Assembly: GCF_001429505.1 (NCBI RefSeq)
Contig: NZ_LMJW01000016.1
Location: 186,001 to 250,000 of the forward strand
Direction: 5' to 3'
Origin: Allobosea sp. Root483D1
GTDB taxonomy: Bacteria > Pseudomonadota > Alphaproteobacteria > Rhizobiales > Beijerinckiaceae
DNA: 64,000 nucleotides
Position 1 is the stretch's first letter. Each line of letters opens with the position of its first letter. The position numbers and the translations under genes were made by a program. Below, one piece after another: positions 1 to 54,834 of this stretch. A model generated the notes under the pieces. It was not told the origin of the DNA. It made no database searches and was given only the letters and a program-made list of their open reading frames with translations.

Positions 1-2
1 TC

Positions 3-335
3 GCCGGCCGCGTCGCCTCGGTTGCCGACGGGCAGGCGACGGTCACCTGCGGCGAGGTCGGCGTCACCGGGCGCACGAGGTCGCAGGTCGCGGCCGGGCA
101 GGGCGCCCATATCTCGATCCGCCCCGAGGACCTGCATCCTGTGGCGGACGGCGCTCCGGGGCTTAAGGCCAAGGTCGTCTCGACCGAGTTCCACGGCCGC
201 GAATTCGTCGGCTTTGCCCGCATGGCGGACGACACGCCGCTGACCTTCCTGGCCGATAGCCGCATCGCGCCCGGCACCGAGATCCGCCTCGCCGCCGCTC
301 CTGATCGCGTCCTCGTCTTCGGAGAGGGCGCATGA
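3..335 (+). CDS. ABC transporter ATP-binding protein, C-terminal part (PotA-like), truncated by window start
   Basis: About 110 C-terminal residues are visible. They include the SIRPEDLHPV motif that joins the ATPase core to the TOBE domain in the PotA/MalK/CysA class, followed by a short beta-rich TOBE-like region ending RVLVFGEGA. The Walker motifs lie outside the window. The stop codon overlaps the ATG of the next gene (ATGA), and two spermidine/putrescine-type permeases follow, so this is the energising subunit of a polyamine- or opine-type importer. The substrate cannot be read because the binding protein is not in view. Confidence 0.85.
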   Translation, partial: AGRVASVADGQATVTCGEVGVTGRTRSQVAAGQGAHISIRPEDLHPVADGAPGLKAKVVSTEFHGREFVGFARMADDTPLTFLADSRIAPGTEIRLAAAPDRVLVFGEGA

Positions 336-1240
336 GCACCCTGTCTGGCGCGGCGCCCGGCACCGTCGAGATTCCGCTCAAGCAGCGCCTCGCCGCGCGC
401 GGGCTCGACGGGCTGACCCTGCTCGTCTTGCCCGCGGTGATCTTCCTGCTGGCGCTGTTCATCTACCCGTTCTTTTACGGGCTCTTCCTGTCCTTCAATC
501 CGAAGGCCGGCGGGGCGCTGGCGAACTACCAGCGCTTCTTCTCGGATTCCTTCCTCTACGGCACGATCGCGACCACGCTCTGGCTCGCCATGCCGGTGAC
601 CATCCTGACTCTGCTGCTGGCGATCCCTATCGCCTTCCGCGTCCGGCTGATGAAGAACCAGCGCCTGCTCACCACCATCCTGGTGATTCCGATCACGCTC
701 GGCACCGTGCTCGTCGCCGAAGGGCTCTTGAACTATCTCGGCCCGCAGGGCTGGTTCAACCGCACGCTGATGGCGATCGGCCTGATCTCGAGCCCGGTGA
801 AGCTCCTGCATAATTACTGGGGCGTGATGCTCTCGCTGGTCATCACCGGCTTCCCCTTCACCTTCCTCTTGACGCTGTCCTATCTCACCGGCGTCGATCC
901 GGCGCTGGAGCAGGCCGGCGCAACGCTCGGCGCCGGACCCTGGGAGCGCTTCAAGCACATCCTCCTGCCGCTGCTGCTGCCCGGCCTCGCCATCACCTTC
1001 TGCCTCAGCTTCGTCCAGGCCTTCTCGGTCTTTCCCTCGGCGGTGCTGTTAGGGGCGCCAGCGGGCCCGACGCGCGTGATCTCGATCGCCGCCTACCAGG
1101 CCGCCTTCGAGGAATACGACTACTCGATGGCCTCGGCCGTCGCGATGATCATGGGCATGGTCCAGCTCGCCATCGTCGTCGCGGTGCTCGGCCTGCGCGG
1201 CATGCTCTATCGCGGCCCGGCCGGCGGCGGGAAGGGCTGA
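332..1240 (+). CDS. ABC transporter permease, PotB/spermidine-putrescine type
   Basis: This 302-residue inner-membrane protein has about six hydrophobic segments. It carries a permease EAA-like loop around EQAGATLGAGPWERFKHILLPLLLPG, the contact site for the ATPase. The N-terminal 30 residues are cytoplasmic and are followed by the first membrane span (LLVLPAVIFLLALFIYPF). It overlaps the ATPase gene by 4 nt and is followed after 4 nt by a second permease, which is the usual PotA-B-C order. Family assignment is firm; substrate is inferred only as polyamine-like or a related small cation. Confidence 0.88.
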   Translation: MSTLSGAAPGTVEIPLKQRLAARGLDGLTLLVLPAVIFLLALFIYPFFYGLFLSFNPKAGGALANYQRFFSDSFLYGTIATTLWLAMPVTILTLLLAIPIAFRVRLMKNQRLLTTILVIPITLGTVLVAEGLLNYLGPQGWFNRTLMAIGLISSPVKLLHNYWGVMLSLVITGFPFTFLLTLSYLTGVDPALEQAGATLGAGPWERFKHILLPLLLPGLAITFCLSFVQAFSVFPSAVLLGAPAGPTRVISIAAYQAAFEEYDYSMASAVAMIMGMVQLAIVVAVLGLRGMLYRGPAGGGKG

Positions 1241-1244
1241 TCCG

Positions 1245-2075
1245 ATGGTCAAGGACACCCGCCTTTCCACCAAGCTCTGGGCCGCGGCCAACTGGACGCT
1301 GATCGGCTTTTTCATCGTCAACCTGTTCGGCATGATCGCGGCGGTGGTGACGAGCTCGTTCTCGACGCGCTGGCTGCGCTCCTGGCTGCCGGATGGCTGG
1401 ACGACGCGCTGGTACGGCGCCGCCTGGAGCGAGTTCCAGCTCGGCGACGTGCTGACGGTCACCTTCCAGATCGTCTTCCTCGTGGTCTTCCTGTCGGGGC
1501 TGATCGGCGTGCCCGCCGCCTATGCGCTGGCGCGGCGCGACTTCCCCGGCAAGAAGCTGGTGATGCTGCTCTTCCTGCTGCCGCTGCTGGTGCCGCCGAT
1601 CACCTTCGGCATCCCGCTCGCGACGGTGCTCTATCGCACCGGGCTCGCCGGCTCGATGTCGGGCGTGGTGCTCGCCAATCTCGTGCCGACGGTGCCCTTC
1701 GTCATCCTGGTGATGATCCCGTTCATCGAGCAGATCGACACCAAGATCGAGGCGGCGGCGCGCGTCTTCGGCGCCAACACCTTCAAGCTCTTCGTCTACG
1801 TGCTGCTGCCGCTGCTGATGCCCGGCATCCTCGCTGCGCTGCTGCTGGTGCTGGTCCGCACGATCGCGATGTTCGAGCTGACCTTCCTCACCGCCGGTCC
1901 GACCAGCCAGACCCTGGTCGTCGCGCTCTACTATGCCGTCTTCGCCGCCGGCGTCCGCGCCGTGCAGTCGATCGACGCCATGGCGGTGATCTACATGGTG
2001 ACGACGCTGATCTGGCTCATCATCGCGCTGCGCTTCGTCAACCCGACGCAGATCGTGGCGCGGGCGAAGCGGTAG
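1245..2075 (+). CDS. ABC transporter permease, PotC type
   Basis: This 276-residue protein has six predicted membrane segments and the EAA-like motif EAAARVFGANTFKLFVYVLLPLLMPG typical of the second permease of PotABCD-like importers. It begins 4 nt after the first permease and would form the heterodimeric channel with it. Nothing follows in the operon: the next gene, a topoisomerase, is of unrelated function and is separated by a perfect hairpin that may end or attenuate the transcript. Confidence 0.88.
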   Translation: MVKDTRLSTKLWAAANWTLIGFFIVNLFGMIAAVVTSSFSTRWLRSWLPDGWTTRWYGAAWSEFQLGDVLTVTFQIVFLVVFLSGLIGVPAAYALARRDFPGKKLVMLLFLLPLLVPPITFGIPLATVLYRTGLAGSMSGVVLANLVPTVPFVILVMIPFIEQIDTKIEAAARVFGANTFKLFVYVLLPLLMPGILAALLLVLVRTIAMFELTFLTAGPTSQTLVVALYYAVFAAGVRAVQSIDAMAVIYMVTTLIWLIIALRFVNPTQIVARAKR

Positions 2076-2103
2076 GCCGGAACAACCCGCGGCCTCCCGC
2101 ATT

Positions 2104-2130
2104 CCTCCGCAGCCGGTCGAGCTGCGGAGG
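2104..2130 (+). promoter_or_regulatory. 10-bp perfect hairpin burying the Shine-Dalgarno of topoisomerase IB
   Basis: CCTCCGCAGC (2104-2113) pairs perfectly with GCTGCGGAGG (2121-2130) around a 7-nt loop. The GGAGG at 2126-2130 sits 6 nt before the ATG at 2137, an ideal ribosome-binding position, yet it lies wholly inside the stem. No T-run follows, so a simple intrinsic terminator is unlikely. The likely roles are translational repression of the topoisomerase, or a 3' stabilising stem for the upstream permease mRNA. Confidence 0.55.
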
Positions 2131-2136
2131 CGCTGA

Positions 2137-3159
2137 ATGGTCACCAAGAGCAAGGGAAGCGCCGCGGCGAGCACAGGCCGCCTGCGCCGCGTCAGCGTCG
2201 ACGACCTCACCATCCGCCGCGTCCGTGTCGGCCGCAATTTCGGCTATCGCGACGCCGAAGGCGGCAAGATCACCGACGAGGAGACGCTGGCGCGCATCCG
2301 CTCGCTGGCGATCCCTCCGGCCTATGAGGATGTGCTGATCGCCAGCGATCCGCGCGCCCATCTCCAGGCGATCGGCCGCGACGACGCCGGCCGCATCCAG
2401 CATCGCTATCATCCCGATTGGGAGAAGGTGCGCGAGCGCCGCAAGCTGAAGCGTCTTGCCCAGCTGATCGACGCCCTGCCGAAGCTGCGCCAGCGTATCG
2501 CCACGGACCTGAAGGATCGCACGCTCTCGCGCGACAAGGCACTCGCCTGCGCCGCCGCGGTCATCGATCGCTGCCATATCCGCGTCGGCAACGAGGTCTA
2601 TGCCCGCACCAATGGCAGCCATGGCGCCTCGACCCTGCTGAAGCGCCATGTCACCGTCACCGGCCGGCAGGTCGCGCTCGCCTTCCGCGGCAAGAGCGGC
2701 AAGGACATCGCCTGCGGGCGCGATGATGCTCCGCTCGCGCGAGCGCTGACGCGATTGAAGACATTGCCCGGCAAGCGCCTGTTCCAGTACCGGGCCGAGG
2801 ACGGCCTGGTCGTGGCGATCGATGCGGCTGACATCAACGCTTACATGAAGGAGGCGACCGGCCTGCCGATATCGAGCAAGGACCTGCGTATGCTCGCCGC
2901 CAATGCCGCTGCCGCCGAGCTCCTGCTTTCGACCGAGATCGCCGCCAGCGAGCGCGGCCGCAAGCGCCAGCTCGCCGACATCATGCGCGCCATCGCCGAG
3001 CGGCTGGTCAACACGCCGGCCGTGGTGCGCAAGAGCTATGTCCACGCCATCGTCGTCGACGCCTATGCCAGCGGCCGCCTCAGCCGCGCCTATCGCAAGG
3101 CGCGCGGTCGCGGCGGCTGCTCACGCATCGAGCGGGCGCTGGGCTTGCTGGCGGCGTGA
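2137..3159 (+). CDS. DNA topoisomerase IB (poxvirus/eukaryotic-like)
   Basis: This 340-residue enzyme relaxes supercoils through a 3'-phosphotyrosyl intermediate. Visible hallmarks are the N-terminal block VGRNFGYRDAEGGKI with LAIPPAYEDV, the GRDDAGRIQHRYHPDW block, the catalytic-core RVGNEVYARTNGSHGASTLL, the KDLR segment (Arg251) and the active-site tyrosine in NTPAVVRKSYVH (Tyr301). In many bacterial relatives the KDFR segment continues TWAGT; here it reads MLAAN, a divergent sequence next to a catalytic arginine. It stands alone, without a gene partner. The start is fixed by the GGAGG 6 nt upstream, which is sequestered in a hairpin. Confidence 0.92.
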   Translation: MVTKSKGSAAASTGRLRRVSVDDLTIRRVRVGRNFGYRDAEGGKITDEETLARIRSLAIPPAYEDVLIASDPRAHLQAIGRDDAGRIQHRYHPDWEKVRERRKLKRLAQLIDALPKLRQRIATDLKDRTLSRDKALACAAAVIDRCHIRVGNEVYARTNGSHGASTLLKRHVTVTGRQVALAFRGKSGKDIACGRDDAPLARALTRLKTLPGKRLFQYRAEDGLVVAIDAADINAYMKEATGLPISSKDLRMLAANAAAAELLLSTEIAASERGRKRQLADIMRAIAERLVNTPAVVRKSYVHAIVVDAYASGRLSRAYRKARGRGGCSRIERALGLLAA

Positions 3160-3261
3160 GCAGGATGCATGGCCGCCTGCCAGTGCCGGGCGGCGACGGG
3201 GGTTGAACCCGACGGGCGCGCTGGCCAAGCTCGGACCAAATCATCCGAGGAAGCGCCAGGC

Positions 3262-4407
3262 ATGTTTCTCACCAATTCCGACATGGTCGAGCTGATCGAG
3301 CTGCGTCATGCCCTCCACCGCGCGCCGGAGATCTCAGGCGAGGAGCGCGAGACGGCCAAGGCAATCGTCGGCTTCCTCGCGCCGAGCGCGCCCGACCGCA
3401 TCGTCACCGATCTCGGCGGTCATGGCGTCGCTGCGATCTATGAAGGCACCGAAGCCGGCCCGACCGTGCTGATCCGGTGCGAGCTCGATGCACTGCCGAT
3501 CGAGGATCTCTCCGGTGTGCCGCATAGCTCGCAGGTGCCGGGCAAGGGCCACCTTTGCGGCCATGACGGCCATATGGCCACCGTCGCGGCGCTGTCGCGC
3601 GGGCTCGGCCGGCAGCGGCCGGAGCGCGGGCGCGCCATCCTGCTGTTCCAGCCGGCCGAAGAAACCGGTGCCGGTGCCGCAGCCGTGATCGCTGATCCCA
3701 GGTTCAAGGAGATCGCGCCCGACTTCTCCTTCTCGCTGCACAACAAGCCCGGCCTGCCGCTGGGCGGTGTCCGGATTTCGGAAGGTCCCGCCAACTGCGC
3801 CTCGCGTGGGTTGAAGGTGGTGCTGACCGGCCACACCTCGCATGCCGCCACGCCAGAGCACGCGATATCGCCGATGAAGGCGCTCGCCCGCCTGATGCCG
3901 GAGCTGACTGCGCTCGGCCAGGGTGGCGCGCTCGAGGGCAATTACCGTCTCGTCACGGTGACCCATGCCAGCATGGGCGAGCCGGCCTTCGGCATTACCC
4001 CTGGTCGCGCTGAACTCTGGGCGACGCTGCGCACGCTGAACGATGCGTTGATGGGCTCGCTCTGCGCCGAAGCCGAGGCGCTTGTGCGCGAAGCCGCCTC
4101 GGCCGGCGGGCTCTCCGTGACGATGGATTACCATGACGTCTTCCATCACTGCGAGAATGATCCCGAGGCGGTGGCGCATCTGCGCCGCGCCTGCGACGAG
4201 GAGGGCATTGCGCGTGGCGAGACGCCGCCGCAGCGCGGCTCCGAGGATTTCGGCCTGTTCGGCCGCTCCTCGAAATCGGCGATGTTCCTGCTCGGCTCCG
4301 GCGAAGATACGCCGCCACTGCACAATCCCGACTACGACTTCCCCGATGCATTGATCGCGCCCGGCGCCCGCGTCTTCATGCGCACGATCAGGAACCTGCT
4401 GGGTTAG
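3262..4407 (+). CDS. M20 family amidohydrolase (IAA-amino-acid/hippurate hydrolase type)
   Basis: This is a 381-residue cytoplasmic metallopeptidase-family enzyme. The M20D signature is present: ELRHALHRAPEISGEE at the N-terminus, the metal-binding CGHDGHM segment, and FQPAEETGAG with the catalytic glutamates. The dimerisation domain lies around residues 175-290. Family members cleave N-acyl amino acids such as hippurate or indole-acetyl amino acids. The open frame extends to 3169, but 3262 gives the canonical N-terminus. The gene is single, between topoisomerase IB and cobF, and its substrate is not predictable from the sequence. Confidence 0.88.
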   Translation: MFLTNSDMVELIELRHALHRAPEISGEERETAKAIVGFLAPSAPDRIVTDLGGHGVAAIYEGTEAGPTVLIRCELDALPIEDLSGVPHSSQVPGKGHLCGHDGHMATVAALSRGLGRQRPERGRAILLFQPAEETGAGAAAVIADPRFKEIAPDFSFSLHNKPGLPLGGVRISEGPANCASRGLKVVLTGHTSHAATPEHAISPMKALARLMPELTALGQGGALEGNYRLVTVTHASMGEPAFGITPGRAELWATLRTLNDALMGSLCAEAEALVREAASAGGLSVTMDYHDVFHHCENDPEAVAHLRRACDEEGIARGETPPQRGSEDFGLFGRSSKSAMFLLGSGEDTPPLHNPDYDFPDALIAPGARVFMRTIRNLLG

Positions 4408-4460
4408 CGGTCGCATACTCCTGCGTGCTATGCGGCGCCTCTAATGGAACAGGGGTGCCC

Positions 4461-5222
4461 ATGCGCAGGATCAGGATCATCGGCATCGGCGCCGGCAACC
4501 CCGAGCACATGACGATCCAGGCGATCAAGGCGCTCAACACCGCCGATATCGTCTTCGTGCCAGACAAGGGCGCCGAGAAATCTGCCTTGCGCGAACTGCG
4601 CGAGGAAATCTGCCGGCGCTATATCGAGCGCGACGGCTGGCGCACCGTGCCGCTCACCGTGCCCAAGCGTGCCGCTGCGGGCGACGATTATCGCGGGAGT
4701 GTCGACGACTGGCATGCGGTGCTCGCCGAAAGCTATGAGCGGCTGTTCCGCGACGAGCTCAGCGAAGACCAGACCGGCGCGCTCCTCGTCTGGGGTGATC
4801 CGTCGCTCTACGACAGCACGCTGCGCATCATCGAGGCCGTGCGCGCCCGTGGGCTGGCCTTCGACTACGACGTCATCCCCGGCATCACCAGCGTCCAGGT
4901 ACTGGCAGCGGCACATCGCCTCGTGCTCAACCGGATCGGCGAGCCCGTCACCATCACGACCGGCCGCAAGCTCGCCGAAGGCGGCTTTCGCGACGATGCC
5001 GGCAGTACCGTGGTGATGCTCGATGGCGAGCAGGCCTTCGCGAAGATCGATCCCGCCAACCTCGAGATCTGGTGGGGCGCCTATCTCGGCGCGCCGCAGG
5101 AGATCCTGGCTTCCGGCCCGCTAGCCGGGGTCTCGGATGAGATCGCCCGCAGGCGCGAAGCGGCCCGCGCCGAAAACGGCTGGATCATGGATACTTATCT
5201 GCTCAGGCGGGGCGAGGGCTGA
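4461..5222 (+). CDS. cobF: Precorrin-6A synthase (deacetylating), CobF
   Basis: This 253-residue enzyme of the tetrapyrrole methylase fold methylates C-1 of precorrin-5 with loss of acetate in aerobic cobalamin synthesis. Support comes from the N-terminal RIRIIGIGAGNPEHMTIQAIKAL, the glycine-rich LLVWGDPSLYDSTLRI loop and the SAM-pocket segment VIPGITSVQVLAAAHR. ATG 4461 is preceded by AGGGG at a good distance; an in-frame upstream ATG at 4425 would add 12 uncharacteristic residues. The gene is isolated from the other cobalamin genes here (cobS and cobT near 25-27 kb), so the pathway is scattered in this genome. Confidence 0.93.
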   Translation: MRRIRIIGIGAGNPEHMTIQAIKALNTADIVFVPDKGAEKSALRELREEICRRYIERDGWRTVPLTVPKRAAAGDDYRGSVDDWHAVLAESYERLFRDELSEDQTGALLVWGDPSLYDSTLRIIEAVRARGLAFDYDVIPGITSVQVLAAAHRLVLNRIGEPVTITTGRKLAEGGFRDDAGSTVVMLDGEQAFAKIDPANLEIWWGAYLGAPQEILASGPLAGVSDEIARRREAARAENGWIMDTYLLRRGEG

Positions 5223-27634: not shown

Positions 27635-27663
27635 GACGCGCCGGGCGTTCGACCCGGCGCGTC
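27635..27663 (-). terminator. 11-bp hairpin downstream of the glutathione transferase gene
   Basis: GACGCGCCGGG (27635-27645) pairs perfectly with CCCGGCGCGTC (27653-27663) around a 7-nt loop. On the minus strand it follows the GST stop (27673) by about 10 nt and is followed by a short TTTCC. The strong GC stem with weak T-tract makes it a probable terminator shielding vapBC from the GST transcript. Confidence 0.55.
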
Positions 27664-41281: not shown

Positions 41282-41310
41282 GCCCGCCGGCCATTATGTG
41301 GCCGGCGGGC
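41282..41310 (-). promoter_or_regulatory. Intercistronic 11-bp hairpin between binding-protein and permease genes
   Basis: GCCCGCCGGCC (41282-41292) pairs perfectly with GGCCGGCGGGC (41300-41310) around ATTATGT. It lies 19 nt after the binding-protein stop and 27 nt before the permease start on the minus strand, with no T-run. Such stems stabilise the upstream message or partly terminate, giving excess receptor over permease. Confidence 0.55.
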
Positions 41311-43614: not shown

Positions 43615-43644
43615 CCGATTCTGTCGCGATGACGACAGAATCGG
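43615..43644. promoter_or_regulatory. Perfect 12-6-12 inverted repeat upstream of rocD
   Basis: CCGATTCTGTCG (43615-43626) and CGACAGAATCGG (43633-43644) are exact inverse copies. The site lies 77-106 bp upstream of the rocD start and 20 bp beyond the stop of the small membrane-protein gene. With no T-run it is better read as an operator than as a terminator, though both are possible. Confidence 0.5.
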
Positions 43645-54807: not shown

Positions 54808-54834
54808 AAGCCCCGGATTGCTGATCCGGGGCTT
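54808..54834 (-). terminator. Intrinsic terminator of dctQM (minus strand)
   Basis: AAGCCCCGGAT (54808-54818) pairs perfectly with ATCCGGGGCTT (54824-54834) around 5 nt. Read on the minus strand it follows the dctM stop (54854) by about 20 nt and is followed by TTTTTCTTTTC. Confidence 0.85.

Follow-up and report, generated by a model that had tools for sequence, protein, structure and literature searches.

The Shine-Dalgarno (SD) sequence of a DNA topoisomerase IB gene lies inside a perfect hairpin, which directly adjoins a candidate promoter of the EcfG type; transcription from this promoter is predicted to start within the 5' arm of the stem. The layout is found near the beginning of the window, by which we mean the whole 64-kb stretch of DNA analysed here (Table 1). 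We propose that the hairpin is a translational gate that sorts mRNAs by their start position. Run-through RNA from the ABC-transporter operon upstream would hold both arms, fold and hide the SD, and topoisomerase IB would not be made from it; under general stress, EcfG RNA polymerase would start inside the 5' arm, so that the stem could not form and the RNA would be translated. That the stem silences RNA entering from upstream while EcfG stress RNA escapes is, in our judgement, an evenly balanced proposition, for which we infer the start site, the run-through and the lowering of its translation by the stem.

Table 1. Features of the topoisomerase IB leader and its neighbours (positions in the window)
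Feature	Position	Strand	Remarks
ABC transporter permease, the final gene in an upstream operon on the same strand	1245..2075	+	Pfam PF00528; stop codon 2073-2075
GGAAC, predicted -35 of EcfG-type promoter	2079..2083	+	Invariant in 13 clade genomes
CATT, predicted -10 of EcfG-type promoter	2100..2103	+	Invariant in 13 clade genomes; published variant of CGTT
Hairpin 5' arm (anti-SD)	2104-2113	+	CCTCCGCAGC; directly adjoins the -10 CATT
Predicted start zone	2108..2116, best 2112-2113	+	From published spacings; within the 5' arm or at its end
Hairpin loop CGGTCGA	2114-2120	+	In the RNAfold structure C2114 also pairs with G2119, leaving A2120 bulged and a tetraloop at 2115-2118
Hairpin 3' arm	2121-2130	+	GCTGCGGAGG
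Shine-Dalgarno GGAGG	2126-2130	+	Five bases, all within the stem; paired in the RNAfold fold
DNA topoisomerase IB gene, 340 aa	2137..3159	+	Pfam PF21338 and PF01028

A perfect stem on the Shine-Dalgarno sequence

All 10 pairs of the stem (2104-2113 with 2121-2130) are Watson-Crick pairs, eight of them G-C. The GGAGG ends six bases 5' of the topoisomerase IB ATG (2137-2139), and a TGA in frame with this ATG occupies 2134-2136. RNAfold, applied to 2090-2160, forms the stem (-30.4 kcal/mol). An earlier reading of the DNA, made from the sequence only, had described a perfect GC-rich 10-bp hairpin with the GGAGG fully paired, and both the sequence and RNAfold bear this out; full pairing of the SD in any RNA holding 2104-2130 is likewise supported.

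The fold energy of 2090-2160 is just moderately unusual (z -1.70; 11 out of 200 shuffles fold as well or better), and a 10-pair stem is not rare on its own in this GC-rich window: there are five perfect stems of at least 10 pairs with loops of 3-10 bases, against a mean of 1.6 in 10 shuffles. The four others have 11-12 pairs (27635-27663, 41282-41310, 43615-43644 and 54808-54834). What goes beyond chance is the placement of the stem on the SD, together with its conservation. With up to two mismatches allowed, the stem pattern occurs once in the entire genome. Helices adjoining the promoter -10 reach 10 pairs in 10 out of 27 Bosea leaders, compared with 0.12 expected from shuffles, the 10 leaders being kindred sequences and not independent events. 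One further leader, the 28th, was left out of this count (genome G029, locus L004), its ATG being out of frame: ten codons separate the ATG behind the conserved leader from a stop, a start in the frame of the gene was not found nearby, and the N-terminus of this topoisomerase looks frameshifted or mis-sequenced.

The predicted promoter adjoining the stem

The stem is directly adjoined by GGAAC-N16-CATT (2079-2103) in all 13 genomes of the window's clade, and this sequence has the form of an EcfG-type promoter (GGAAC, 16-17 bases, then CGTT or a close variant). We rejected such matches per se as evidence, with 177 of them in the genome and 168 for the reversed control. The genome shows no enrichment of the motif as such, and the evidence consists in its association with topoisomerase IB. 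The motif is found within 260 nt 5' of 29 out of 49 Bosea topoisomerase IB genes (shuffles 0.20, reversed pattern 0), 5' of 30 out of 46 genes in a family-wide sample (shuffles 0.15, reversed 0) and 5' of 44 out of 110 in an order-wide sample (shuffles 0.30, reversed 2); all of these are samples of related sequences and not of independent events. G089, whose gene is cut off by the end of the contig, and G082, at 39% identity, are left out of the Bosea counts; the family-wide sample consists of 46 new places out of 77, and the order-wide sample of 110 out of 122. Among the 29 strict Bosea matches, 27 lie 53-59 nt before the equivalent of the window's ATG, the exceptions being G066 (-37) and G085 (-150).

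A NepR profile match over the cut-off was found in the window's genome, where NepR, an ECF-type sigma factor (a sigma-70 region 2/4 protein) and PhyR domains are encoded by neighbouring ORFs; the genome thus holds the sigma factor, NepR and PhyR that EcfG control calls for, and one motif match lies upstream of the nepR reading frame. In Sphingomonas melonis Fr1, a bacterium of another order, topoisomerase IB #1831 is listed among the top EcfG-dependent genes (PMC6599016, Table 1), and in the available portion of the same paper its motif ends in GCATT, 24 nt before the gene. On these comparisons, the assignment of 2079-2103 as an EcfG-type (general stress response) promoter is well supported.

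Two more matches in the window (40666 and 48143) lie within long ORFs and look like chance. Genome G065 has two diverged topoisomerase IB genes, 77% (L036) and 66% (L069) identical to the query, and the EcfG-type motif is found only at the first copy (L036).

Where transcription is predicted to start

Published spacings, as given in the portions of the papers available to us, were applied to the window. In S. meliloti, predicted promoters were accepted when they lay 5-12 nt ahead of a start (PMC3616915); the Rhizobium RpoE2 motif is written as GGAAC-N18-TT-N8-G (PMC6011840), the last G of which we take to be the start site; and the Caulobacter SigT motif is placed at -34 (PMC4287350). In this order, they lead to about 2108-2116, to G2112 and to C2113, the last two being the best positions. 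No start distance was found in the available text of a further Caulobacter paper, and in that of a Methylorubrum start-site paper we found no mention of EcfG or topoisomerase. Because the predicted start falls at 2108-2116, most of the 5' arm should be missing from the stress RNA, which would keep a few of its bases at most. The sequence-only reading had required heat, a protein, ribosomes or a small RNA to open the stem; this requirement falls away if the EcfG-type promoter starts within the 5' arm, as predicted. It had also named a start downstream of 2113 as evidence against itself, and the predicted zone makes this a borderline case.

An opened lock would still be needed if, in the main condition, RNA from another promoter included the whole stem, and a riboswitch, a thermometer, a small RNA or a protein then freed it. 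The predicted pairing of the SD in any RNA holding both arms is what such a lock would show, and RNA thermometers and translational riboswitches likewise hide the SD in a hairpin. The Bosea stem differs from these in being a very stable GC stem that is likely to be bypassed by its promoter, the predicted start of the conserved promoter lying inside the arm; moreover, a scan of 1-5000 for sigma-70 sites on the plus strand found none, and an Rfam scan of 1900-2400 gave no family near the cut-off. A thermometer should open within the growth range, and it was rejected on the predicted SD-opening costs: for RNA from 2104 these are 12.4, 11.7 and 10.5 kcal/mol at 37, 42 and 50 C, and the small predicted response between 37 and 42 C makes a thermometer unlikely. 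We consider an opened lock of any of these kinds quite improbable.

Conservation of the stem in the Bosea clade

The topoisomerase protein tree of the genus, which is given without support values, places 13 genomes in the window's clade. The window and 10 out of its 12 closest Bosea relatives have the same stem: among 200 stem cells compared, one differs from the window, a change in G086 that falls in 2121-2125 and gives a G-U pair. Over the same clade genomes, the promoter spacer differs in 55 out of 160 cells, the three bases 3' of the stem in 13 out of 30, and the loop in four out of 70, all four at 2115-2117 within the predicted tetraloop; four-fold codon sites differ in 19-34%. G005 and G036 keep a 6-pair core with the SD, plus an inner 3-pair helix, G-U pairs included. 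Loss of pairing in close relatives, the other outcome that would have told against the sequence-only reading, was therefore not seen. In the comparison of leaders for compensatory changes that it had suggested, pairing is kept and G-U is tolerated, but among the 13 clade genomes no pair has changed on both sides. Judged by these comparisons, the stem is under constraint, without covariation proper.

The same pattern could arise if the two arms were conserved separately, the 5' arm as EcfG promoter or initially transcribed sequence and the 3' arm as SD and spacer, with a complementarity that is incidental or ancestral. Several genomes of the sister group, in which the stem on the SD is weak, have CTCCGCAGC or a variant of it 3' of the -10, as separate conservation would have it; the loop, too, is fairly conserved, and the window has its five stems of like size. 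However, the part of the 3' arm that lies 5' of the SD (2121-2125) is no less conserved than the remainder, its one change preserving pairing as G-U, the three bases directly after the stem vary, and the 10-pair helices far exceed the number expected in Bosea leaders. Separate conservation is unlikely in our view.

Alternatively, a dimeric regulator may bind the 27-bp palindrome as a DNA operator located where the promoter starts transcription. Such a position, with a nearly perfect inverted repeat spanning the predicted start, is classical for an operator, and the spacing of the arms is constant within the clade; but the genome has its one copy of the pattern, and a scan of 67 genomes of the genus at up to two mismatches found it in 16 genomes: 11 have it at topoisomerase IB, and the remaining hits match the level of the reversed-pattern control. 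The changes that break the symmetry keep RNA pairing as G-U (G086; G005, pairs 2 and 9; G036, pair 9), and the spacing from CGCAG to CTGCG differs between the clade and the sister group. We regard an operator as improbable.

The upstream gene in the clade and in other Bosea genomes

Under the proposed gating, RNA would enter from the ABC-transporter operon. The ABC permease is the co-directional upstream neighbour in 13 out of 13 clade genomes (93-100% identical), and its distance from the topoisomerase gene is 61 nt in the window, 57-62 nt in eight out of 13 clade genomes and 155-214 nt, with other palindromes, in the remaining five, three of which keep the stem perfect or with one G-U. The permease stop (2075) is 28 bases 5' of the stem, and a ribosome terminating there should not reach it. 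Palindromic inserts of at least 100 nt lie between the two genes at L003, L006, L007, L008 and L034 (that of L008 includes a 21-pair perfect stem); they look like dispersed palindromic repeats.

A stem in the first gap after the permease might itself terminate transcription of the ABC-transporter operon, or be a dispersed repeat. Both are highly improbable: an intrinsic terminator should have a T run after its GC stem, but none follows here and a terminator scan of 1-5000 found none, and a dispersed palindromic repeat should have many copies in the genome, where this pattern has one.

The sister group comprises 15 leaders (G085 and G089 were dropped from the 17 on the tree), and in 13 of them the upstream neighbour is divergent and encodes an M81 peptidase. 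Six other Bosea genomes (L013, L015, L018, L019, L021 and L064) have the same ABC permease upstream and are without such a stem on the SD. The pattern of neighbours, which represents few independent events, fits a possible need to insulate the gene where the operon reads in. In these six genomes, a large GC hairpin follows the permease and has GGAAC at its apex, the promoter overlapping a terminator-like structure.

Predicted cost of freeing the SD

In all 13 clade genomes, opening the SD is predicted to cost more when the RNA includes 60 nt from upstream than when it begins at the predicted start, the means being 10.1 and 4.0 kcal/mol and the gaps ranging from 0.5 to 12.6 kcal/mol. In the sister group the cost with upstream context is higher in 10 out of 15 genomes, and the means are near equal (3.7 vs 3.1 kcal/mol). 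The window's own leader has the smallest gap, 7.5 vs 7.0 kcal/mol with 60 nt upstream; with other fold lengths the values are 6.2-13.0 kcal/mol, compared with 5.6-6.2 for a start at 2112. Pairing of some SD bases with the coding region accounts for the small size of the window's gap and for its dependence on the fold length. As modelled, the energy effect belongs to the clade more than to the predicted energy of the window itself.

Comparison with known gating systems

In phage T4, gene e is translated about 100-fold less from its early run-through RNA, the late RNA from inside the stem escapes, and I-TevI works like gene e (available portions of PMC3014915 and PMC2988022). For gene e and I-TevI, and also soc, gene 49 and mobE of phage Aeh1, these portions describe the SD in a strong hairpin of a long early RNA and a late promoter whose RNA is without the 5' arm and is translated, the arrangement that we propose for the Bosea leader; as start-inside-stem gating demands, the SD of the window lies inside a stable stem. 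In these phage genes the starts have been mapped and the repression measured, whereas the Bosea case is a chromosomal stress gene with an alternative sigma factor, known from sequence. In fold-back inhibition of the IS10/Tn10 transposase, run-through RNA folds and hides the start site, and the element's own RNA starts inside the repeat. The folding of run-through RNA over the start site and the start inside the repeat are what the proposed gate shares with it; however, IS10/Tn10 is a mobile element guarding itself from outside promoters, and the Bosea gene is a host gene. Topoisomerase IB #1831 of Sphingomonas melonis Fr1 is the same gene with the same kind of promoter, a GCATT -10 and a short distance to the start codon, but no SD hairpin is mentioned in the available portion of PMC6599016. 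In the part of the literature that our search covered, we found no description of start-inside-stem gating of topoisomerase IB or of an EcfG gene.

If the proposed gating is true, an alternative sigma factor would govern translation as well as transcription, through a start that deletes the inhibitory arm, and this would explain how a stress gene can be silent 61 bases behind a transporter operon without a terminator. SD hairpins that are annotated without start sites can then yield the opposite of the true regulation. The link between topoisomerase IB and the general stress response would also be widened beyond Sphingomonas, giving a prediction for many Hyphomicrobiales.

A second stem in Azorhizobium, and leaders across the order

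Azorhizobium oxalatiphilum, another member of the family, has a topoisomerase IB that is 48% identical, and its leader has GGAAC-N17-CATT, two bases and then a perfect 11-pair stem holding the SD. This stem is unrelated in sequence to that of Bosea and occurs once in the A. oxalatiphilum genome. The neighbour upstream, a methyltransferase gene on the minus strand, is divergent, a sigma-70 promoter scan at the locus found none, and no source of a long RNA is evident there. As a comparison of sequences, the Azorhizobium case supports the layout and weakens the run-through account. TATAAT is visible by eye in this leader; a second genome of the genus Azorhizobium is without the motif.

The two unrelated stems raise a wider, tentative idea: chromosomal stress genes may use T4-type gating, in which the start of the general stress sigma factor removes a translation lock and topoisomerase IB comes only from the stress RNA, in a layout that would have arisen at least two times (Bosea and Azorhizobium). 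We think this rather unlikely as it stands; if true, promoter choice itself would be the key to translation.

Two general rules were considered. That topoisomerase IB across the order has such stems is weakly supported: helices of at least seven pairs were found in seven out of 56 order-wide leaders with motif and start codon, compared with 2.5 expected, and several of the seven are from one genus. That EcfG genes carry such stems is unsupported, the longest helix near a -10 having seven pairs in 30 loci (fetched from the 177 genome motif matches, with 44 site listings, some repeated through overlap). In three genomes of another genus (L196, L199 and L200), CGTT directly adjoins a 7-pair stem, the 3' arm of which extends into the start codon; these do not go beyond chance, and are possibly a third case of the layout.
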